Source: Apiotrichum sp. Y4204
Taxonomy: Eukaryota > Basidiomycota > Tremellomycetes > Trichosporonales > Trichosporonaceae
DNA: 64,000 bases
Direction of reading: 5' to 3'
Assembly (NCBI GenBank): GCA_025531455.1
Contig: JAMYHL010000026.1
Span: 496,001 to 560,000, forward strand
Shown: piece after piece, positions 34,550 through 47,584 of the stretch
Position numbering within the stretch: position 1 is the stretch's first letter
How the letters are laid out: the number at the start of each line of letters is the position of its first letter
Translations under genes and position numbers: made by a program
The notes under the pieces: generated by a model
The model's database searches: none
The model's input: the letters and a program-made list of their open reading frames with translations, nothing else
Told to the model about the DNA's origin: nothing

Positions 34550-37033
34550 ATGCCCAACGCCGGCGCAGGAGAAAGCGAAAAGTGAGTCGCGACCAAGACG
34601 AAAACAAAACAAACACTCAATCCACCTCCACTCCACATTCCACGCTCCACCCGCTCCACACATTGTCGCTGACATCCCCAGCCTCCGCCCCCGCCGTTCC
34701 CGCAAGGACCGGCCATGCGACCACTGCCGCCGCGCTAAACGCAGCTGCCACATCACGGTGCGCGGAGAGGCATGCACGCACTGCAGCAAGGCGAACCGCC
34801 AGTGCAGCTTTGATGCGCCGCCGCTGAACCGGCACCGGCGCGCGTCGAGCTCGCCTCAAGCGCAGAGCGCGCCGTCGGCAAGGCGCGAACTCCATCTCAC
34901 ATCATCGGGACCGGGGACGTCGACAGCGACGTTCTCCAGGTCGCCGCATACCCCCTCCCATCCCCTGCATACCTCGCGTCCATCACATCCCGCGCATCCA
35001 TCACATCCCTCGCACCCATCACATCCCTCGGGTCCATCACATCCCTCGGGTCCCTCACATGCCCCGCATCCCCAACATCCCCATGCGCATCCGCCGGGAT
35101 GGATGGCCGAGCGGTCCACCATCGGTGCCCCGCGAGAACGCTCCGCTGTCGCCGCGTTTCTGGATAGTTTGGAGGAGGACGAGGCCCCGCGCCGGCATGA
35201 TGTGAGTTTTGCGTTTTGTCTCTCCGCTGACGCAGATCGACGACGACAGCTACAACTCGCTTGAGCTGGGCGTCACCGAGGAGGAGGAGTCGCATTACCT
35301 CGGTGAGCGCGATCCCTAAACATATCTGAACATAGGCTCGGGGGCCGTCGCGCAGCTTGCATCCGTGTCGCTCGACTCGCGCATCGAAGCGCGTAATGCC
35401 GACGCACTCCCGTATCGCCAGGTCGCGGATCCACGGTATCCTGCATACTTTCTCAAGAACCCGTCCAAGGTGTATGGGCTGTCGAACGCCGCGTTCATTG
35501 CCGAGAAGGCGTATCAGGACGTACTGGCGATAGTCAGTGCCGACGATCCTGGCATGCCGGAGCGGCTGATACAGCAGTGCGTCTTGCAGTTTATTATCGT
35601 TCGCGCTCTCATCTCACCTCCAGCTTCCTCAAACGCACACTACCAACACTCCCGATTCTGAATCGAGCCCGCTTCGAGGCTTCGCTGCGCGGGTGGAGCG
35701 GCGGCGGCCGGTTCCCGTACGCCCTGCTCGTAGCCATATTCGCGCACTCGGCGGTCTACGAGCCCTCGCTCCGGCGGCACTGCAAGGATATGTGGAGTAT
35801 TCACCTGCACGTATGCGACAACGAGTACCGCCAGCCGCGGCTACAAATTATTCAGCTTGAGATCTTTAATATCACCGGCAGGCCGATCCTCAATCCGGGA
35901 GGGAACCACCTTGGCATTGCCCGCGTGCGTGGGAGCTTTGTCCATTGCTGACGGCAGGCGGTCGGCACCATCCAGCTGCTCGGTCTGCACCGCGACTGCT
36001 CCCACTGGAAACTGCCGAAGTGGGAGCGCTCGCTGCGGAAGCGTCTCTGGTGGACGCTGTATATCTGCGACAAGTGGTGCGTACATTAAAGCTGCAAGAA
36101 TTTCTCCAGCTGACGGCAGGAACGCGTACACGTACGGTCGTCCGGTGAATCTCGAGCGAGCGCGGTCCGGAATTCCGCCGCTGACGCTCGACGACGACGA
36201 CCAGGGGCGGGACAGTCCGTCAGATGATGCAGACATATCGTGCTTCATTGCGCTGTCCCGCCTTGCTGTCATCCTCGAGAACATCCTACCACTCGTGCTA
36301 GAGCGGGACACGGGGTACCGACGAGACGGACCTGACCGCGCTGTGCTGGTGCACGCTGCGAGCGATTTGGACGAGGTATACCGCGACCTCTCCTCCGATC
36401 TTGTATTCAGCCCGACTACCACAACGTACCCTCTACGACCGGGTTGCAGTGAGATGAAGTGTACCGCAGCCTCTGACGCCAGGATCTCTGCAGCTGGCCC
36501 ACCTGGGTATCACCGTGCTGATATGTCGATTGGGACTAGAGCGCGACGACTTTGCCACGCTCTCGCATCTCACAAAGGCGACGTCACGCGCACTGGCGGT
36601 GATCGACGGAGTTGCAACTTTCGTTGAGCACCTGACGGCGGACGATTTCCACAGCCACTGGGCGCCGTGGTCTGCGTTCCAGCTCTCCAACGCGGTGACG
36701 CTTCTCCTTCAACAAGCTATCCGGGTAAACCAGCACGCGTCAGCAGAGCCCGGAGCGGACGACATGCGCGTCGCGCAGCTGAAGGACCTGTTTGCCGTGC
36801 TCTCCCGCCTTGTACACGTGATTCAATCCGCAAGCGAGCGAGGGTGGGACGTCGCCGAGTCCGCCACGCCGCGCATCAAGGGTCTCATAAAGTCCATGCC
36901 GCACATCCCAGGCATTGAGGGCGTGCAGGCCATGACAGACTCGGCGGTCCCTGACTGGATGCCGACCGAGCCCGAGCCCCAGGGGGATATCTTTGCGCTC
37001 TTTGACTGGCTTAATGGGGATCGTGTCTTTTAG
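34550..37033 (+). CDS. Zn2Cys6 transcription factor with fungal MHR domain
   Basis: Predicted 719 aa from eight exons: 34550-34581, 34682-35201, 35236-35302, 35336-35576, 35624-35924, 35958-36076, 36120-36448 and 36483-37033. Most introns are 33-47 nt; the first is 100 nt. Cysteines at residues 23, 26, 33, 42, 45 and 52 form the C-x2-C-x6-C-x8-C-x2-C-x6-C binuclear zinc cluster. A low-complexity stretch of Pro/His/Ser triplets (HPSHPS, GPSHPS) at 34970-35075 is encoded by 12-bp repeats and forms a flexible linker. The middle-homology region (GGRFPYALLVAIFAHSA, RLWWTLYICDKWNAYTYGRP) is typical of fungal regulators of catabolic genes. The next genes downstream are an amidohydrolase and a dehydrogenase, possible targets. 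Confidence 0.93.
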
Positions 37034-37265
37034 CGTGTCGTGTTGTATTATCCTGGTATCTGTAGGGCTTTGGTGGGAATGTACATGTTGTTGTCGGGAG
37101 ATATCTCGGATGTTGGTCGTGGTCGATTGTAGAATGGCGGGTGTCAGATGTCGGTGTCTAAACTCGGAACCCTACCGAAATCATACGACGTCATTGCACG
37201 CAACGTGCTGTTAAACACCCCATTCCAACCTTCAAACTCGTCTCAACACCTTCCACTCGCCCACA

Positions 37266-38806
37266 ATGCCGCACTGGACACCTCCCGATCCCGCAAAGCA
37301 CACGCCCCGCCCCCCGCCAAAGGGCGACATCAACGCCGTACCGTGGCAGCCGCCCCCGGCGCGCCCTCTCGTGCTGCGAAGTGGGCTCCAGCAACGACTG
37401 AGGTGAGAGCTGACGCCAGACGCGAATGTCGTCGACGTCGCCGGCAACAAGGTACACAAAGCAACGGTCGTGATTGAAGACGGACACATCTCGCAGGTGA
37501 CCGCCTCCGAGGTGAACATTCCAAACAGCCGCGACATCGACCTTGGAGGACTGTACCTCTGCCCCGGGCTCACCGACTGCCGTGCGTAGAAGTACAGAAA
37601 TTCTCTAATCGCAGACGTGCACATCAACTTCAGCGACGGGCGCCCGACGCCGTTTGTCGATCACCACCTGCGCGCGTCCTACACGCTGAAATGCATGCTA
37701 GCGCGTGGGTTTACGACCGTCCGCGATGTCGTGAGTGCAACAAAAGTGGGTGGGGCTAACCGCAGGGAGGGGCGACGTTCTTCCAGAAACAGGCCGTCGA
37801 GCAATGGCTTACCCCCGGCCCGCGGCTCTTCCAGGGGGGACATCTGAGTAAGTGAGTCTGGCTGCCGAGCTGACATTGAGTGAGCCAGACGGGCGGGCAC
37901 GGCGACCTGCGTCCGCGCGAAGCGCCCGCAGACCTGTGCTGCGCCCCGCGCGACTTCTACACCATCGCGGACGGGGTGACTGGCGTAACGGTCGCGACGC
38001 GCGAGGCGATGCGGCAGGGCGCGGATCACGTCAAGATATGCACCAGCGGCGGGGTGAGCAGCCCGACGGACAAGCTCGAAGGTGTGCAGTTTTCCCCCGA
38101 GGAGATCCGGGCGATTGTCGCCGTCGTAAAAGATATGGGCGGGACGCTGGTCACGTCGCACGCGTACACTGTCCCCGCTATCAGGCGGGCAGTGGAGAAT
38201 GGCGTGCGCGGCATCGAGCATGGAAACCTCCTCGACCGCCCGACGGCCAAGCTCCTCGCTGAAACGGGCACGTTCCTCACCCCGACATTGATGATCTCTA
38301 CGGCAAAAGGTCGCGCGCCGTGGAACGCCACGCTGCCAGACTACATGCGCGAGAAGAACGCAATGGTGCGCGACGCCGGCCGCCGCGCCATCCAGATTGC
38401 CGACGAGGAGGGCGTGTGTATTTGCTTTGGCACGGATCTCACCATGGGGTAGGGAGTCAATGAAGTTGTCACCGCTGACGGCAGAATGGGATACCTCCAA
38501 AGCGAAGAGTTTACGCAGCGCCACGCGCTCCTCCCTTCCCACCGGGTGCTCGCACATGCGACGATCAATGCCGCCAAGCAGCTCAATGACGACAAGATTG
38601 GGCGTATTGCCGAGGGCGCGTACGGCGACTGCCTCGTGCTCACGGCCAACCCGCTCGAGGACTGCCGCGTGCTCGATGCTGGCCCAGCGGGCATCTGGGG
38701 CGTCATCAAGGAGGGGCGCGTCGTCGTTGCTCGTGATGAGTTAAAGCGCAAGCTCGACGAGTGCGGCGGCCTCGATGTCGTGCTGGGTGTGGAGGAGGCT
38801 TTGTAG
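37266..38806 (+). CDS. metal-dependent amidohydrolase (prolidase/imidazolonepropionase-like)
   Basis: Predicted 454 aa from six exons: 37266-37380, 37420-37581, 37615-37730, 37766-37847, 37881-38448 and 38485-38806. Intron 1 needs a GTGGGC donor at 37381, which gives the expected RPLVLRNANVVDV and removes an in-frame TGA. Metal ligands are visible: H93-x-H95 (CHVHI), a Lys in DHVKIC, His in TSHAYT and IEHGNL, and Asp in FGTDL. SQTGGHGD is characteristic of the amidohydrolase group that includes Xaa-Pro dipeptidase-like enzymes. It probably hydrolyses a cyclic amide or a dipeptide; the substrate is unknown. Same-strand neighbours are a Zn2Cys6 factor upstream and a dehydrogenase downstream. 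Confidence 0.92.
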
Positions 38807-39195
38807 CGGCTCAGGCTGCGGAACCTGTGTTCAGATTGCACGTTCGCATGCTCCGGCATGCGCATGTAGCGGAGATCGGATCAGCATGTCGGCAACTCTT
38901 GGTGGAATACTGACCACACTGACGTCCATCGGGTTGAGAGCAGCTGGAACTATCATGGCCCTGTCTTATCTTGACCGCTTACACCGTTGCCACGCCCATG
39001 AATGGCTTCTCACGCCCCCGAACTCGCCCCAGGAATGCGCGCCCCTCAATGCATTCACATTAGAGTTTCGACGTATGTGGCGCAGTGGCGCGGATAACCG
39101 TGATATGAGAGCAGCATTCCCACTCGATACATAAATACTGCTTCACTTGCTCCAGACTGACCCTCGCACATCTCTCCCACCATCACAGCCCCACC
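38807..39195. other. intergenic, promoter of dehydrogenase
   Basis: Contains ACATAAATAC at 39129-39138, about 60 bp before the ATG, as a possible TATA element. No gene. Confidence 0.55.
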
Positions 39196-40475
39196 ATGAC
39201 AGAGTATACCATCCCGCACACGCCGAGCCCCTTCACCGATGTCCCAAACCTCGAGGTCAAGGCCAAGGGGAACACCCACGTCGTCCTCACCAGCCCGCAG
39301 CACATATCCCTCGAGAACCGGCCCATCCCCGAGCCAGGCCCAAACGACGTACTTGTAAAGGTCATGGCGACGGGAATGTGAGTCCCAAAGAAAACAAAAC
39401 TGATACTGTACAAGCTGCGGCACGGACTTTAGTTACTACGCCCGCGGTGGGGTCGGCTCGCGCCGCGCGACTAAGCCACACGTGCTGGGCCACGAGGCCG
39501 CCGGAATTGTCTACTGCGTCGGCGACGAGGTCGTGAACGTCAAGCCAGGGGACCATGTCGCGCTTGAGCCCGCCCTACCGTGCTATCGCTGCCGCTACTG
39601 CCGCGAGGGGCAGTGGAAGTGAGTTCCCGCGCGGAGGGAGCTTATGGCAGCTACTGCGTTCACGACGGATACTTTGCAACTCCTCCCTACGGTACGTGAC
39701 GCATCAGCACCAGCTCACGCCAGACGGCACCCTCTGCCAATGGTTTAAGTGTCCGGCGCTCAACGCCGTGCGTATCCCCCACACGCTCCCCTGGCCCGAG
39801 GCGGGGTGCATTCAGCCCTTGGCGATTGCGGTGCAAATTGCCCGACGCGCGGGCACGCTCACGCAGAAATCTGTCGCCGTGTTCGGCGCGGGTCCCCTCG
39901 GCCTGCTCTGCATGGCGGTTGCGCGGGCGTATGGTGCGCGCCGCATTGTCGCGTTTGACATTTCCCCGCCTCGCGTGGAGTTTGCGACCGGGTACGCTGC
40001 GACCGACGGCGTGGTGTGTCCCTCCCCGCCCGCCGACGTGGATATCATGCAGTGGAACGACGGCGAGTCGGTCAAGATTCTCAAGAACCTGAAGGAGCCG
40101 CCGCTCGACGTGGTTCTCGAGGCGAGTGGAGCCGAGAGCGCCATGCAGCTCGGTATCTCCCTCCTGCGCTGCGGAGGTACCTGTGAGTAAAAAGTATTTC
40201 GGCCTTTGCTGAGAGTAGTCGTCGCGGCGGGCATGGGCAAGCCGATGACGTCCTTCCCCTCGCTCGAGCTGTCGGCAAAGGAACTGAATGTGATCGGCTC
40301 GCTGCGGTACACGACTGGCTGCTTCGAGGACGCGATCAATCTCGTAGAAAGGGGCGTCGTGGACCTCAAGCCGCTCATCACCGCCACGTTCCCGCTTGAA
40401 CAGGCCGAGGAGGCGTTCAAGGCGGTTAGGGACGGGAAGGAGATAAAGGTCGTGATTCTCAATCATGAGGAGTAA
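39196..40475 (+). CDS. zinc-dependent alcohol/polyol dehydrogenase (MDR family, xylitol-dehydrogenase-like)
   Basis: Predicted 381 aa from exons 39196-39377, 39415-39618, 39651-39691, 39724-40182 and 40216-40475, with introns of 32-37 nt. Catalytic zinc ligands are C62 (ICGTDF) and the His of VLGHEAAG. The structural zinc site is intact as [15 protein letters not shown] (C-x2-C-x2-C-x7-C). PPYDGTLCQW and [19 protein letters not shown] (NAD binding) resemble polyol dehydrogenases such as xylitol or sorbitol dehydrogenase. It likely oxidises a sugar alcohol with NAD+. A longer-than-usual N-terminal extension of about 25 residues is present. Confidence 0.93.
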
Positions 40476-41464
40476 AGACAGAGGCCACAGCAAGCGCTTC
40501 TCCATTGTGAAAAATGCCACCAGTTCCATTCCGATCGATGTTCTGGTGAGCTGGCGACTAACCCTCAAAGCCAGGGCTTTTCGGCCGCGGCTCGTCCCTC
40601 TCAGAATCTCAGGCCCCAGTCAGAACCAGAAAACACAATCATGTCTGTGACGCGCAGGAACCGCCCTGAACGGAATGAAGGGAATGCCGAGAGCTGCACC
40701 TCGTTGACATGTCCTGCAGGGATAGAGATGAAACACAGGATTCTCGGCGCGCCACAAGGTTCCAAGACCCAGAACTCACAGAAGCTTTCATATCTCAAAG
40801 TGCTCAGATCAATTGTCTAGAGAGCTAGAGGTGGCCGAGCACGTTTCACGTCCTTTCGACTTCTTTTGCACCAACGTCGTGGTCCGGCGCTGTTGACACT
40901 ACTGTTCTTGAGAAAACGTGTGTCAACATGTCTCTCCAGTAAGAGAAGATCCGGACTGATCCTTCTGCGCTCCAAGGCTCCAATGTGAGCGGATTAAGAC
41001 GTACATTACAACACATGTGTCGTCATTTTCTATCAACGACCTGGCCCTTCAGCTTCTCCTCAGTCTTCCATCACTTGACGGCATGCTCGCCGGCGTCTTC
41101 CCCTGGAGACCACCCTGTCTACCGCATCGCGAGTCCGGTCAAACGTGCCACGGGCACAGCTTGCCTCGGCCGCCACTCTTGGTTTTGTCTCGGCCGCAGC
41201 TCGCTTTGCTGCAGCTCCTTTCGCTCCTCGAGACCCTGCCGACGCGAAGGGGGAGGAAAACCAAAGACACCGGATCTTGACGACCTCGGCGCCCGGAGAT
41301 GGAGTATCAAGGCGAGAAACCCGCCTCGCGCGCTGTCGCTCTCGGGATATAAAGCCCCACCGCGCGATATGCCGAATCCCCATTCCACCCCAAACTCTCA
41401 TTGACCCAAGATCTGAGTCGTCCTGGTCTAAACCAACCCAACCCAAACTCTCCGAAAAACCGCA
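40476..41464. other. intergenic, promoter of peptide-precursor gene
   Basis: No gene. Contains a TATA box at 41347-41353 and a CA/CT-rich leader up to the ATG at 41465. Confidence 0.6.
41347..41353 (+). promoter_or_regulatory. TATA box of repeat-peptide precursor gene
   Basis: ATATAAA in GGATATAAAGCC, 112 bp before the ATG, followed by a CCACCCC- and CAACCC-rich leader typical of strongly expressed genes here. Confidence 0.55.
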
Positions 41465-41758
41465 ATGAAGCTCGCCGTCACCCTCTTCGCCCTCGCGGCA
41501 GTCGCGGGAATCACGATCGCCGCCCCCGCCGAGAAGCGCGACGCCGCCCCCGAGGCGCAGTGGGGTGGTTTCGGTGGTGGCCAGCGTGACCCCCAGTGGA
41601 AGCGTGATGCCGACGCGGCGCCAGAGGCCCAATGGGGCGGATTCGGCGGTGGCCAGCGTGACCCCCAGTGGAAGCGTGATGCCGACGCGGCGCCAGAGGC
41701 CCAATGGGGCGGATTCGGCGGCGGTCAGCGTGACCCCCAGTGGAAGCGCGACGAGTAA
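41465..41758 (+). CDS. secreted Kex2-processed repeat peptide precursor (alpha-factor-like layout)
   Basis: An intronless 97-aa protein. Residues 1-19 are a signal peptide (MKLAVTLFALAAVAGITIA), followed by APAE and Lys-Arg at 24-25. Three copies of QWGGFGGGQRDPQW follow at residues 32-45, 56-69 and 80-93. Each copy is ended by Lys-Arg (46-47, 70-71, 94-95), and the protein closes with Asp-Glu. The spacers after Lys-Arg are DAAPEA (first) or DADAAPEA (second, third). Read as dipeptides they are DA, AP, EA, or DA, DA, AP, EA, all X-Ala or X-Pro, which are Ste13/DPP-type substrates. Kex2 and dipeptidyl aminopeptidase trimming would release three identical 14-mers with N-terminal Gln. It is the layout of ascomycete alpha-factor precursors. 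No CAAX box is present, unlike basidiomycete pheromones. Function unknown; it could be a quorum or mating signal. Confidence 0.9.
   Translation: MKLAVTLFALAAVAGITIAAPAEKRDAAPEAQWGGFGGGQRDPQWKRDADAAPEAQWGGFGGGQRDPQWKRDADAAPEAQWGGFGGGQRDPQWKRDE
41540..41749 (+). repeat. in-frame coding tandem repeat (66 + 72 + 72 bp)
   Basis: Units 41540-41605, 41606-41677 and 41678-41749. Units 2 and 3 differ at three bases, all synonymous. Unit 1 differs from unit 2 at eight codons, all synonymous, and lacks one GAT-GCC dipeptide codon pair. Confidence 0.95.
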
Positions 41759-42343
41759 GCGACAAACGAGTGTCGCCGTCCTTGACTCCGTCTCCCGTGA
41801 GGCACCGTCGCGCCGCCGCGCCGCCGTGCCGCCGTGCCGCCGTGCCCCGAATTTCGTCCATCTCGCGTTTTATCTCCCCAAACGGCGCTCGTTTAGTAAT
41901 TAGAATGTAATCAACGTCATCTCTGCAACACGGCGGGTGTGGGTGATACGTGATAGCAAGGGTTATCACCATAGGGACTGAACTCAATCTGGCCGGAGAC
42001 GGGACCGAGGACGGCGTGTGCCTGTCCCAGCAGCATTGGTGACATGATGCCGTACCCAGTATCGGGTATCTCGGTGCGACTGCCACCCGATTTCCCGTTT
42101 CTGGCGGAGTATCGTCCAGGGCGTCGGAGGCCTGGATGCTAGGGGTTGTCTGAGGTGACCGTGTGTTGGTACCGGCGTTAGAGCTGGTACTTCTTGTGCA
42201 GAGTTAATGACCAAATGGCGTCAGGTGTGAATGGTTTAGCAAGTCATGAGAATCAAGAAAAGTGCGCAGAGATCTAGAAGGGCTACCAGCGTGCAGACAG
42301 CCCCGTTCGCTTCTGATTCAATCACATACGACACATACCATCC
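41759..42343. other. intergenic between convergent genes
   Basis: Contains a GCCGCCGTGCC-type short tandem at about 41808-41845. No gene. Confidence 0.6.
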
Positions 42344-43302
42344 TCAGATCTCAAGTGGCCCCCGTCCTACAGCCCTCGTGATGCGCGCATAGTACGGCAT
42401 GGCCATCATCCACGCGTGGTGCTGGGATCCCGTGTTCTGCTGGGTATACTGAGGTGTTAGCGCCGTGCATGACTCGAGCAGCACCTCGCCGTGCTCACCC
42501 GGGCTTCCTCATCACCAACAAAGGTAAGCTCTCCACCGCGCCCCTTGATGGCCGCCTCGACAGCAATCTGGCCACCGCATAGGTTCTCCAGCCGGACATA
42601 CGTCGCGGTTGCACCCTCGATAGTTGCCGAGCATGTGAGCAGACCCCGATTACGCAAGATGAGCCCCTTGCCATCTTTGAGAGCGGCCTCCACAGCCTCC
42701 ACTGTCGGGTTTAGCGCTTCATCGAAGAACAGCTCGTGGACTGCGTTGTAGAATGTGCAGCTGTCCTGCCACAGCATCTTGAGGGGTTCTCCGCGCGAGG
42801 CAAAGACGCGTCCGTGAGGTGTGTGGCCCGAGGTTATTCCGTTAACGTCCGGGCGGGCAGCATAGATTGCAAGATGGAGGGGCACGTAGTTGGTGTCATC
42901 TGTTGTCAGCACACCCAGCACGTTCATAGGGCAGATTACGCACATTTCCCGCCTCCCACCGCTTCTCCGTCCAGGCGCACTCCCACAAGGCTCCCACTCG
43001 TAACAGCACATAAAGGGACACCCTTCGGAAGGACCCAAACCAGCTGGCTGTCGAGTGCGTCGCGCGCGCTCAGGCCAACAGCACACCCGATGCCCCATCC
43101 CTGCGCGTCCATGATCCGCGCCGCGAGAGCCAGCTGGCCTTTCTGGTACTTTGCGCGGGTGGTGTCATCCTGTAGGTACTGTCAGCTTCGGGAAAGCACG
43201 TTTATTCCCGGCGAGGGGCGGCCTGCGTACCGGAAAGGTGGGGGGCAGGGGACGACGGAAGCCGTCCTTCTGCGCCTGTGGGGCGATTACCAGAGTGGCC
43301 AT
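42344..43302 (-). CDS. class II aldolase/adducin domain protein, copy 1
   Basis: Predicted 267 aa. Exons are 43302-43231, 43169-42944, 42899-42499 and 42448-42344; introns are 61, 44 and 50 nt. ALAARIMDAQGWGIG, SARDALDSQLVWVLPKG and LILRNRGLLTCSATIEGATATYVRLENLCGGQIA match class II aldolase/adducin-type fungal proteins. The zinc-site HxH expected after the PDVNG segment reads SGHTPHG, and the usual third His of the NHG motif is RG here. Metal binding may therefore be altered. It is transcribed divergently from a paralogue, with 266 bp between the start codons. An alternative acceptor would add Tyr-Leu-Gln. It probably derives from sugar-phosphate aldolases, but the activity is uncertain. Confidence 0.9.
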
Positions 43303-43568
43303 GATGGCAAGCACTAGGGAGCAGGATGTGTCAATGTCTTCGCAGTGGTGATGGAGAGGCAGAATATGTGGCGAGTGAACTGCTTTGGTGGTGTTGTGAG
43401 CAAGATGGTCGTTGGACTGGGTGGGATGTTGATGGTCGGAGATGGCCGATGGATGAACATCGATCACCGAGACACCGAGATAGTGGAGAATGTGGGATCG
43501 TAGAGTCAGCAAACAGTCCCACACCTTGGAATACCACCTCTGTCAACATCTCTCCTCCCCATCCGCCG
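43303..43568. promoter_or_regulatory. shared bidirectional promoter of two class II aldolase genes
   Basis: The start codons of the two paralogues are only 266 bp apart, on opposite strands. The region must contain both promoters, so co-regulation is likely. No specific operator was recognised. Confidence 0.5.
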
Positions 43569-44498
43569 ATGATGACTACGACGACAGCAACAGTGACACA
43601 GGAGGCGCCAGTGCTAACTCTGCGACCGACGACGGACGGCGCTTTGGACGAGGTAAGGCGCACCAGCCTGCCACCTGTCCAGTAAGACTAACGCCCAGCG
43701 GCAACGGGTAAAGGAGCGTCTTGCTGGGGCGTTCCGCATCTTCGCGCGACTAGGATACGACGAGGGCGTGGCGGGACACATCAGTGTGCGCGACCCGATC
43801 AATCCCAAGTGAGTGAGGAAACATCTTCCAGCTGACGATAGCGCATTCTGGGTCAACCCCTACGGCGTGGCGTTTGACCACATGACGGCGTCGGACCTTC
43901 TACTCATCGACCACACTGGGGCCGTTCTCGAGGGCACCGGAAAACCCGGTAACGGGCAGTTGTACAATGCCGCCGGGTTTGCGATCCACCACTCGATCCA
44001 CAATGCTCGCAGCGACATCCATGCCGCGGCACACAGCCACAGTTTCTATGGACGCGCATTCTCCGCTCTCGGTCGGAATCTCGATTTGTGCAATTTCGGT
44101 GCGTTTGCGCAATTAATAACTCCTGATTCTCAGAGGGTGCGCAGTACGCGCACACAGTCAAGCTGTACGACAACTTTGGCGGCGTCGTCCTCTCCGACGA
44201 GGAGGGAAAACGCATCTGCGAAGCCTTGGGACCCGAGGGCAAGGGCGTGATCTTGCAGAATCACGGCATCCTCACGGCTGCGACGAGCGTCGAGGCTGCG
44301 GTTGCGTATTTTGTGCGTTTGGAGAAGCTGTGTGAGGCTCAGCTTGCGGCGGATGCTGCTGGCGGCGGTGTTGTCCTCCCTGACCCTGCTGTTGCGGAGG
44401 TGTTTGCGCGGACTGGGGGAGAGGAGAAGGCACGGGAGGAGGCTGAGGAGCTGTATGCTTGGTTAGAGGCTCTGGAAGGGGACGAGTACAAGCGATAG
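43569..44498 (+). CDS. class II aldolase/adducin domain protein, copy 2
   Basis: Predicted 271 aa from exons 43569-43652, 43699-43808, 43842-44098 and 44134-44498; introns are 33-46 nt. It shows the full class II aldolase pattern: [35 protein letters not shown], then the HxH metal motif in [13 protein letters not shown] and the third His in [33 protein letters not shown]. The metal site looks intact, unlike in the divergent copy 1. Members of this fungal group are often annotated as L-fuculose-phosphate-aldolase-like, but many lack tested function. Two in-frame ATGs begin the gene (43569 and 43572). It converges closely with the Dal5-like transporter: 126 bp separate the stops. Confidence 0.93.
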
Positions 44499-44624
44499 GT
44501 ACGATGAGAATCACATATGAGCACTGCCGATTGAAGCGCCCCAAAAACCATTACGCCTATGTAACATAACACTTTTCACTACTTAGCCTTTCCAGTCCCC
44601 AAAACCATGTGTCTAAAGACCATT

Positions 44625-46304
44625 CTACTCAACATAGCGGCGCTCCTCCCCCTTCTCCTCATTTCTGCGGTTACTCCACGAGTATTGGAAGTGCTGGGCA
44701 ATGGCGACGGCACACCCGACGGCCGTGAGGGCGACGCACACGCGGAACCCAGTCTGGTACAGCGGTGCGTCCTTGCCGCGCATGACCTGTGAGCCGATCA
44801 GAGCACCCGTGTTGGCGGACATGATGAACATTGCCATTGCGATGGAGCGCTGCTGCGGCGTCGCCTGGTTCAGGGAGAGCCAGGTGTTGTTCGTCGGGTG
44901 CCATGTGAAGGAGAGGCCGGAGACGACCATCAGCGCCGCGTATTTGCCCCATTTGTCGTGGGATGTGGACTTGGCCAGAACTGGAGTCAGACAAGGCTTG
45001 GGAAGAGCGTGTGACTCACAGCCGATCCATGCGGACAGATTGGCGAGACTTAGGAAAATGACGATAAAGCCCTTGGACTTCACACGGTCGGCGATAAATC
45101 CCACAATGAGCAGTAGTACAAAGGTGATCCAGCCTCCGACGGAGGAGAGCGCATTTGCTTTGATCGCATCGAAGCCAAAGCTCTTGATGAGGAGGGGAAT
45201 GTACTGTCCCACAGCGACATTTGGTGTAATCATCGCAAGGGTAAAGAGTAGATGCGGGTAGTTGCGCCAGTTTCCGAGCGTCCCAAAAATCTCCTTTCTC
45301 GTGAGCGGGCGGCGCGTCTCGGCCTTGGCCACGTCGTCGAGGACCACACGGGCACGGAGAATCTCGCGTTCGCGCGCATTGAACACGCCAAGCGACTTGA
45401 TAAGCGGATAGGGATGTTCCGGCGAGTCAGGGAGGAAGGCGAGAAAGACGAAAAAGCAGAAGAGTGAAAGCGAACCTTCAATCAGAAAGAGATTCTGCCA
45501 GCTCTTGAGATGTGTTTTGATGTGCAAAATGCCGTATGCCAGGAGACCTGCCACACCGCCGACAACGACGTTGCCGAGGAAGAAGATGGCGGTGCGGCTG
45601 CTTAGCTCGCTGCGTTTGTAGAAGCATGAAATGAGGTACAGAGACGCCGGAATATCTGGCCCGTTAGTGTTGGATTCGGTCATGGCACTCACAGCCACAC
45701 TCAGTAATACCGAGTAGAATGCGCGTGGCAAGGAAAGAACTGTAGTTGTGCATGAACATCTGCAGTGTGGCGACGAGACCAAAGCAGAGGATCTGGAAAG
45801 AGATCCAGAGGCGAGGGCCTACGCGCTGCAGAACAATCTGAGAAGGGATTCTGTCCATTAGTCTCAGAATCCGCGTCAATAACACTGGCAAGCTACGTAC
45901 TCGAGAAGAACAATGCCGAGATAGAGCAGACCCTGGCCAGTGTTGAACTGATCAAGCGAGATGCCGATATCCTTGAACATGGATGTGGTTGCAGCGTTCG
46001 CGATATTTCTGTCGTTAGCCACTGTCTCACAATTCACCAAAACCCACCCTCGCTCGATTTGGAAGCAGAAGAAACCAAAAGTGGTCAAGGCGAGGACCGT
46101 GAAGTCGAGCTTGAGGACGACCCTGCGCTCCTCCGCGTCGGTCCAGTCGGTGGAGGACACGGAGTAATCCGAGTCGGACGCTGCCTCAATGTCTTGGACG
46201 ACATGTTTTTCGTCACCTGGGTGTATAAGTCTCCGCAATGCGCACTCGTACGCACCATGAGAAACAGGGTGCGCCAACGTTTTTTCCTCCGTCAATGTAG
46301 CCAT
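44625..46304 (-). CDS. MFS transporter, allantoate permease (Dal5/Tna1-like) family
   Basis: Predicted 491 aa. Exons are 46304-46256, 46216-46048, 46008-45901, 45850-45693, 45655-45020 and 44980-44625. Introns 1, 2 and 5 are each 39 nt and in frame, so retention would also be readable; splicing gives better family matches (ERGNIANAATTSM, WIGFLAKSTSHDKWG). Conserved anion:cation-symporter features include LDFTVLALTTFGFFCFQIERGNI, LLEIPSQIVLQRVGPRLW, ATRILLGITECGYIPASLYLISCFY and HPTNNTWLSLN. About 12 spans. Known members move allantoate, nicotinate, pantothenate or biotin precursors. Its position beside the aldolases suggests uptake of an organic acid, which is inference. Confidence 0.93.
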
Positions 46305-47584
46305 GGCGAAACAACTGCTGTTTTTAGTATGGGATGATCTTCGCTTCTCAGAGGTCAGCTATAAGTACTGCACGCCAAAGCCGCGACATTTCGGCGATGT
46401 GTTCCCAAGCCGATAGGAGTTGATGCCAAGAACGAATGGCGAGGACCTAAACGCCATTCCTCGGCATCGACGTTCCCATCAGCATTGCACCTATGAGCAT
46501 CAACGAGGCTCGGCATAGTGGTGGTGATCATGAAATATGTAAACATGCTACCCCGCCTGCGCTGCCAGTCTGCATGCAAGGCGTGGATTGTGGCCTCAAT
46601 GGCGATATCACTTGGTTGGTGTGTCTGGTGTGGCGCCACGGGTAGCGACGATCGCGACATCGAAACTGAGAATGACGCTCAAGACATCACGTGACTTTAG
46701 GTTGGCGCAAGCTTTGATGCCCATCTATCTCTGTATGATGCATCTTGTCTGAGACGCGACTCGATAAACTGATGCAAATGCTGTTTGCGGCACACAAGTC
46801 GTGACAGGCGCGTTATCGATGGTCTAACCGGAGAGTTCTCTTGGCTTCTTGGCTTTGGTCGCGACTCGTTGCCGGACTCAGAAGGACTAGTGAGTGCGAA
46901 CGTTGGGGGAATGCCCAGGTAGATATAACACCTAGTCGCCCTGGCATGTATCAAGATGAGACGTGTAGCCCAGGCTGGTAAGTAACTTAAGCAGCGTTCA
47001 GTATCTGATCTGATGATAAGGCACTGTCACCGGTGTGTCCTACAACGAGACATTGTGCTGTGAACACCTGATGAACGTAGCCCATTTGGATTAGCCGCTC
47101 TTACATATTTTCACAAAAGCAGCTTCGATAATCTTAATCTTTGCGCTCTCGGCTCGCTTTCGACGGTGCAGCGGTCCTACTGTTGTTGGCCGGCAATCAC
47201 CAAACTCGGCGACTGAAGTGTCGGACTTTGAAGAATTGGACGGAGGAGTGGAGTGGGTTAAGTCACATATGAGGCAAAACTGTGGTGTCAGAAAGGATCC
47301 GAAGATGGCCAGGCCCGACTTGGCCACTTGCCCGCGCGGCGATCTCCGACTTTTGCAACCGACGTCCTCCGGGTGACGGCAAATGGTGCGGCGAGGGCTT
47401 ATCTCGAGAGGGGCAGCGGCGAAGCGGCGAGACGGGCAACAGCGGGCAAGCGGGCAAGCGGGCAACGTTGTTTCGGCGACGTCGTTGCCCGTGTTCGACA
47501 GAGCATATAATGGCGTCGTTCCCAGCCCGGCGAGAGTTCTCCAAGCCCAGAAGGAACTCTGAACAGCTCTAGCACACACTCACG
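46305..47584. other. intergenic, divergent promoters
   Basis: No gene recognised in 1.3 kb. A short GCGGGCAAGCGGGCAAGCGG direct repeat lies near 47440-47462. CATATAA at 47504-47510 is a plausible TATA box for the decarboxylase gene, 75 bp before its ATG. Confidence 0.55.
47504..47510 (+). promoter_or_regulatory. TATA-like element of dialkylglycine decarboxylase gene
   Basis: CATATAA 75 bp before the ATG at 47585. Confidence 0.4.

Follow-up and report, generated by a model that had tools for sequence, protein, structure and literature searches.

What does a fungal gene release when it is built like the alpha-factor precursors of ascomycetes but lies in the genome of an apparent basidiomycete, and what might the product do? 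The question is raised by an uninterrupted, intronless open reading frame at 41465–41758 on the + strand (stop codon included) of the window, the 64,000-nucleotide stretch of the Apiotrichum sp. Y4204 genome that we analysed. The frame encodes a 97-residue precursor, retrieved as a 100% self match in a search of its own genome, which reads MKLAVTLFALAAVAGITIAAPAEKR-DAAPEA-QWGGFGGGQRDPQW-KR-DADAAPEA-QWGGFGGGQRDPQW-KR-DADAAPEA-QWGGFGGGQRDPQW-KRDE and then stops. Translation bore out the first-pass annotation on its central point, three identical copies of a 14-residue core, QWGGFGGGQRDPQW, bounded by Lys-Arg.

The N-terminus of the precursor, MKLAVTLFALAAVAGITIAA (41465–41524, +, approximate boundary), resembles a signal peptide by eye, with a hydrophobic stretch and an A-x-A-like end, and the paralogs start similarly. 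It is followed by a short pro-segment, PAEKR (41525–41539, +), which ends in the first Lys-Arg. Three units follow on the same strand: spacer 1, DAAPEA, consisting of three X-Ala/X-Pro dipeptides (41540–41557), with core 1 (41558–41599) and Lys-Arg (41600–41605); spacer 2, DADAAPEA (41606–41629), with core 2 (41630–41671) and Lys-Arg (41672–41677); and spacer 3, DADAAPEA (41678–41701), with core 3 (41702–41743), Lys-Arg (41744–41749), DE and the stop codon. Ala or Pro occupies the second position in all 11 spacer dipeptides (3 + 4 + 4); the earlier description of the spacers as purely X-Ala/X-Pro holds for the three spacers themselves and not for the segment before the first Lys-Arg or the final DE. 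A candidate TATA element, TATAAA (41348–41353, +), lies 111 bases 5' of the ATG. A Pfam scan of the precursor returned two sub-threshold matches alone (E 0.089 and 0.22), and a PDB search with it returned no match up to E 10.

The three 48-nucleotide copies of core plus Lys-Arg differ at seven sites, six of them in the 14-mer and one in the last Arg codon; every difference falls on a third codon position and is silent. Read in any of the five other frames, these differences alter between 2 and 6 residue columns. A crude null, which takes no account of mutation bias or gene conversion, was made by placing seven substitutions at random; 1 of 100,000 such trials preserved the peptide, and 6 of 100,000 did so when transitions alone were allowed. 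Judged against this null, the silent-only differences mark the + frame as translated and the peptide as the thing kept. Long open frames also run antisense over the repeat (41514–42203 and 41063–41869, both on the − strand); they look like by-products of the repeat, since the + precursor frame alone is free of amino acid differences among the units.

The 48.9-Mb assembly (182 contigs, designated below by C and a number) looks like a doubled genome made of two subgenomes. Positions 36897–47066 of the window match C1:851001–861000 at ~92%, the match being split in two at the repeat; two matches between the STE3 regions of C13 and C51 span 13.5 kb at 94.6% and 5.5 kb at 91.6%; and the Kex2, DPPIV and IMPDH genes are each paired. 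The IMPDH exon has as its best PDB match entry 4af0 (559 bits), which we take to be the Cryptococcus neoformans enzyme, followed by 6rpu, 5mcp and 4z87 (454 bits), presumably from Ashbya, and by IMPDH 1 and 2 entries (~383 bits), presumably human. An acetyl-CoA synthetase-like exon, tried as a second placement marker, was uninformative; the best match, an AMP-dependent synthetase and ligase entry, scored far above acetyl-CoA synthetases, indicating that the gene is something other than an ordinary acetyl-CoA synthetase. A search of the assembly for 5.8S rRNA gave no match.

STE3 is present on both C13 and C51, and on each contig a 29-residue candidate CAAX pheromone, MDAFTATTIEAPRNYEDDRLYDYGSCTIA, which ends in CTIA, is encoded ~5.5 kb from it. 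The scan returned four short CAAX-ended frames per 20-kb region, three of them shared between the contigs, and MDAFTATTIEAPRNYEDDRLYDYGSCTIA was picked out for its identity on both and for its MDAF start, which we take to be like that of Cryptococcus pheromones. The STE3 genes within C13:110001–130000 and C51:20001–40000 are closely similar and the CAAX candidate is identical, so it seems that both parents carried one and the same mating-type allele or that one allele replaced the other. One open frame from this region had no match in the PDB. The four stretches from the STE3 regions have a G+C content of 51–52%, against 55–61% in eight other stretches and 59% in the window, and a mating-type region of lower G+C has been reported for Trichosporonales (PMC6730849), an order in which hybrid species are known (PMC6642101). 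The IMPDH result, the STE3 gene with its CAAX candidate, the G+C pattern and the occurrence of hybrids in the order together indicate a Tremellomycete, probably of the Trichosporonales, and so the basidiomycete host proposed from the window is upheld.

The precursor is one of a family. Own-genome searches with three members as protein queries, followed by translation of the loci, yielded 12 loci with 30 core copies, a count that takes in broken copies on C1 and C10 and leaves out an upstream CRGTQCW-KR in pair 6. Matches at C3:117479, C149:10611 and C3:31509, and antisense ones on C139 and C152, were left out of the family. The loci were grouped as six homeologous pairs, with homeology checked at the nucleotide level for pairs 1 and 3 and the remaining pairings made by protein similarity. 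Pair 1 joins the window gene to a C1 locus with a single copy and a stop within the core. Pair 2 comprises C102:478130, with one copy of RWGGGCGGQPCW, and a frameshifted C10 locus that ends in CL-RR; we had guessed this homeolog to lie on C1 near 905–925 kb, which was wrong. In pair 3, C152 carries five copies of QWGAGTCSGKACW and C20 four copies of QWGAGTCGGKACW before the contig ends. Pair 4 combines three copies of NSGWGQGGCGGHACW and two of DSWGRGPCSGEACW on C139 with four DSWGRGPCSGEACW-kind copies on C94, one of them with RPP. Pair 5 (C6 and C106) has two copies of GFGGGGCGGGHNPVCW at each locus, preceded by QH in C106, and each locus of pair 6 (C153 and C57) has a single core of QWG type that ends in CW followed by the stop codon.

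Two or more core copies are found at 7 of the 12 loci. Two cysteines are present in 26 of the 30 core copies, namely in 26 of 26 in the five other pairs and in 0 of 4 in the window pair, and 23 of the 30 end in CW-KR. In 13 distinct spacers, picked by eye and excluding both pair-4 loci and the frameshifted C10 locus, Ala or Pro is second in 75 of 78 dipeptides and first in 13 of 78. In pairs 3 and 5 the cores are read in another frame than the signal-like start, and we infer an intron in these genes. Pair-4 spacers end in ER, and the residues preceding the pair-2 spacer and the first spacers of pair 5 are SR and ER, respectively, so the family also has sites that are not classical for Kex2. 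In the pair-4 precursors the residues ahead of the DSWG cores, and ahead of EA-NSGWG, are ER instead of KR, so these peptides may be cut with a second specificity or be longer when mature.

Codons with silent-only and with amino acid-changing differences were counted for pairs 1, 3, 4, 5 and 6. They number 7 and 2 in pair 1 (both changes coming from the broken C1 copy), 3 and 1 in pair 3, 5 and 0 and 3 and 1 for the two comparisons in pair 4, and 1 and 0 in pair 5, whereas pair 6 has 0 and 4. The cores are thus kept within most pairs, and pair 6, changed between the subgenomes at 4 of 13 core codons, speaks against uniform constraint. The sole change in pair 3, S or G, separates C152 from C20 in 9 of 9 copies, a pattern that concerted evolution of the units within a precursor would produce.

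The alpha-factor-style layout proposed for the window gene recurs in the paralogs with variable copy number, and genes for enzymes of the matching kinds are present. The Kex2 P-domain (P_proprotein) occurs on C114 and C149, corresponding to two gene copies; the C149 catalytic exon matches the kexin entry 2id4 (E 1.4e-115), and the C114 copy has, by eye only, a membrane-anchor-like stretch and an acidic tail. A DPPIV-type enzyme (DPPIV_N) is encoded in 778-residue open frames on C153 and C57, with an N-terminal hydrophobic stretch seen by eye, and could be either Ste13 or a vacuolar relative.

From these elements we infer a scheme of secretion, cleavage, Kex1-type trimming, pyroglutamate formation and signalling. 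The precursor would be secreted and cut by Kex2 after each Lys-Arg, and a putative Kex1-type carboxypeptidase would trim the basic C-terminal residues. A membrane dipeptidyl aminopeptidase of the Ste13/DPP type would strip the X-Ala/X-Pro dipeptides (DA, AP, EA) and halt at Gln-Trp. Each precursor would then yield up to three linear copies of QWGGFGGGQRDPQW, probably with an N-terminal pyroglutamate, a modification that the analogy to the Coprinopsis peptides makes likely. Pair 6 supports a mature peptide ending in Trp: its open frame stops right after CW, the point to which Kex2/Kex1 trimming would bring the other peptides of the family. The released peptides would serve as extracellular cell-to-cell signals rather than as a mating pheromone. 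On balance we favour this account, a linear QWGGFGGGQRDPQW set free by Kex2 and exopeptidases and acting as a non-mating signal; the constancy of the peptide and a layout fit for a ligand that is released are our reasons for reading it as a signal.

The kind of gene has precedents in print. Ste13-type alpha-like Kex2-processed repeat precursors (KEPs) with dipeptide spacers are reported for Basidiomycota by Le Marquer 2019 (PMC6339444), among them a Trichosporon oleaginosus KEP with the core QSWGGCGGRGTPCW. This KEP and the window gene share Kex2 sites, Ste13-type dipeptides and the core form WGG.GG...P.W, but the window core lacks both cysteines, with F and Q standing where these would align; the comparison is between cores. 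Only 5 of 2000 shuffles of the window core align better with QSWGGCGGRGTPCW, and among the eight other family cores compared, the C57 core has 172 such shuffles and the remaining seven have 4 to 37 of 2000.

Vogt 2022 (PMC9769878) describes KEP peptides detected in mushrooms by mass spectrometry, with Ste13-like trimming. The products reported there from agaricomycetes are linear and carry pyroglutamate, with signs of STE13 trimming, and one of them, QYKAPSW, was made in Pichia from a precursor of Coprinopsis (PMC9769878). These KEPs resemble the window gene in their basidiomycete origin, Kex2 sites and X-Ala/X-Pro spacers, and QYKAPSW and QWGGFGGGQRDPQW both start with Gln and end with Trp. 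The core sequences are otherwise different, and the mushroom peptides have been seen whereas the window peptide is predicted from its gene. Among the KEP types given in Umemura 2020 (PMC7329392), moreover, a Yarrowia/Cutaneotrichosporon one bears the annotation pheromone. The peptide had been called undescribed, a label that no longer fits given the basidiomycete alpha-like precursors published in 2019, T. oleaginosus included, and the mushroom peptides detected in 2022; the window gene is instead a new, cysteine-less member of a KEP kind already published. Our PubMed Central searches found neither the window 14-mer nor the Apiotrichum family in print, nor an account of a multi-gene family in one genome or of a subgenome comparison, although supplements may hold members. 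The parallel drawn earlier with Cryptococcus Qsp1, a secreted signalling peptide of a related fungus, concerns a possible role; Qsp1 is reported to be imported by Opt1 and to act inside the cell (PMC7537855).

A serious rival to the signal reading, less probable in our judgment though far from negligible, keeps the same processing and directs the peptide at other organisms, as an antimicrobial or in some other interaction, instead of at the producer. Vogt 2022 suggests that such peptides take part in interaction with the biotic environment, and knocking out six Coprinopsis KEPs produced no apparent phenotype there (PMC9769878). The paralog cores also differ from one another, and the four differing core codons of pair 6 are all amino acid-changing. 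The window core points the other way, its amino acids having stayed constant while silent sites drifted; moreover, QWGGFGGGQRDPQW is short, Gly-rich and not strongly cationic.

Single genes of the family are likely dispensable, and the window gene alone is unlikely to be essential, since its C1 homeolog is broken, with one unit, a stop within the core and TACAAA at the place aligned with the window TATAAA. The frameshift in the pair-2 homeolog points the same way, and the missing cysteines of the window core and the Coprinopsis knockouts also count against importance of the gene. Against the signal reading itself stand the amino acid changes between the pair-6 homeologs and the failure of the STE2 search, which had no positive control, to turn up a receptor. 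We consider it unlikely that the window gene is itself a decaying member that has no present role, its triplication being a recent tandem expansion. Such decay would fit the single stop-bearing unit on C1, the frameshifted homeolog of pair 2 and the loss of both family-motif cysteines from the window core, but it sits poorly with differences among the three window cores that are silent only and with a frame that is open under a TATA-like element.

We regard as improbable a further reading, in which the gene encodes an alpha-type mating pheromone proper that acts through a Ste2-like receptor. The precursor layout and the two-cysteine cores ending in CW in other family members argue for it, and Le Marquer 2019 (PMC6339444) saw the same likeness in T. 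oleaginosus. Filamentous-ascomycete alpha pheromones (such as those of Neurospora and Fusarium) indeed share the precursor plan and resemble the CW-ended two-cysteine cores of the paralogs, RWGGGCGGQPCW most closely, but the window core is cysteine-less and shows no specific likeness to them. Against three ascomycete pheromones, 195 to 213 of 2000 shuffles of the window core, or about a tenth, align at least as well; the number is 9 to 16 for RWGGGCGGQPCW, the strongest likeness, and 112 to 235 for the pair-5 core and NSGWGQGGCGGHACW. By these alignments the ascomycete likeness is uneven across the family, and the resemblance noted in the first-pass annotation is strongest in RWGGGCGGQPCW, not specific in the window core and absent in some paralogs. 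What further weakens the mating-pheromone reading is that C13 and C51 each have the CAAX candidate close to STE3 and that the host genome gave no STE2 match, in a search run without a positive control.

Dikaritin RiPPs have a tyrosine-bearing core. Least probable of all is that the gene encodes a cyclic peptide of this type, or an uncut wall or fibril protein like the Ustilago Rep1 peptides: Kex2-flanked repeats are common to both (PMC9769878) and Y is counted in repeats by the 2020 survey (PMC7329392), but QWGGFGGGQRDPQW has no tyrosine, UstYa/DUF3328 was matched neither in the host genome (in a search without a positive control) nor among the Pfam matches of the 20 window frames chosen for scanning, and the dipeptide spacers of the window gene point to exopeptidase trimming.

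More broadly, we put forward as a tentative and rather doubtful proposition that Trichosporonales possess a second, non-CAAX peptide signalling system, in which lineage-specific alpha-factor-like precursors, diversified as paralogs, would release W-ended peptides that differ from one another, each recognized by a non-Ste2 receptor of its own, and the window gene would represent a disulfide-free branch of altered specificity. The 12 loci of one family found here stand against an average of 1.00 KEP per strain in Tremellomycetes in the 2020 survey (PMC7329392), figures that are not like for like as the repeat criteria of the survey differ. The doubled genome supplies natural pairs that show which peptides are kept and which decay, and makes the role of alpha-like peptides in basidiomycetes testable.

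Around the window gene, the Pfam-matching neighbours are a zinc-binding dehydrogenase (39537–40187, +), a class II aldolase (42460–43164, −) and an MFS transporter (44628–45818, −); these nearest such genes are ordinary metabolic or transport genes, with no hint of a peptide-modifying cluster there. The five-copy precursor of C152 (stretch L022:4939–5463) continues for 33 residues past its last KRDE, the point at which the window gene stops.
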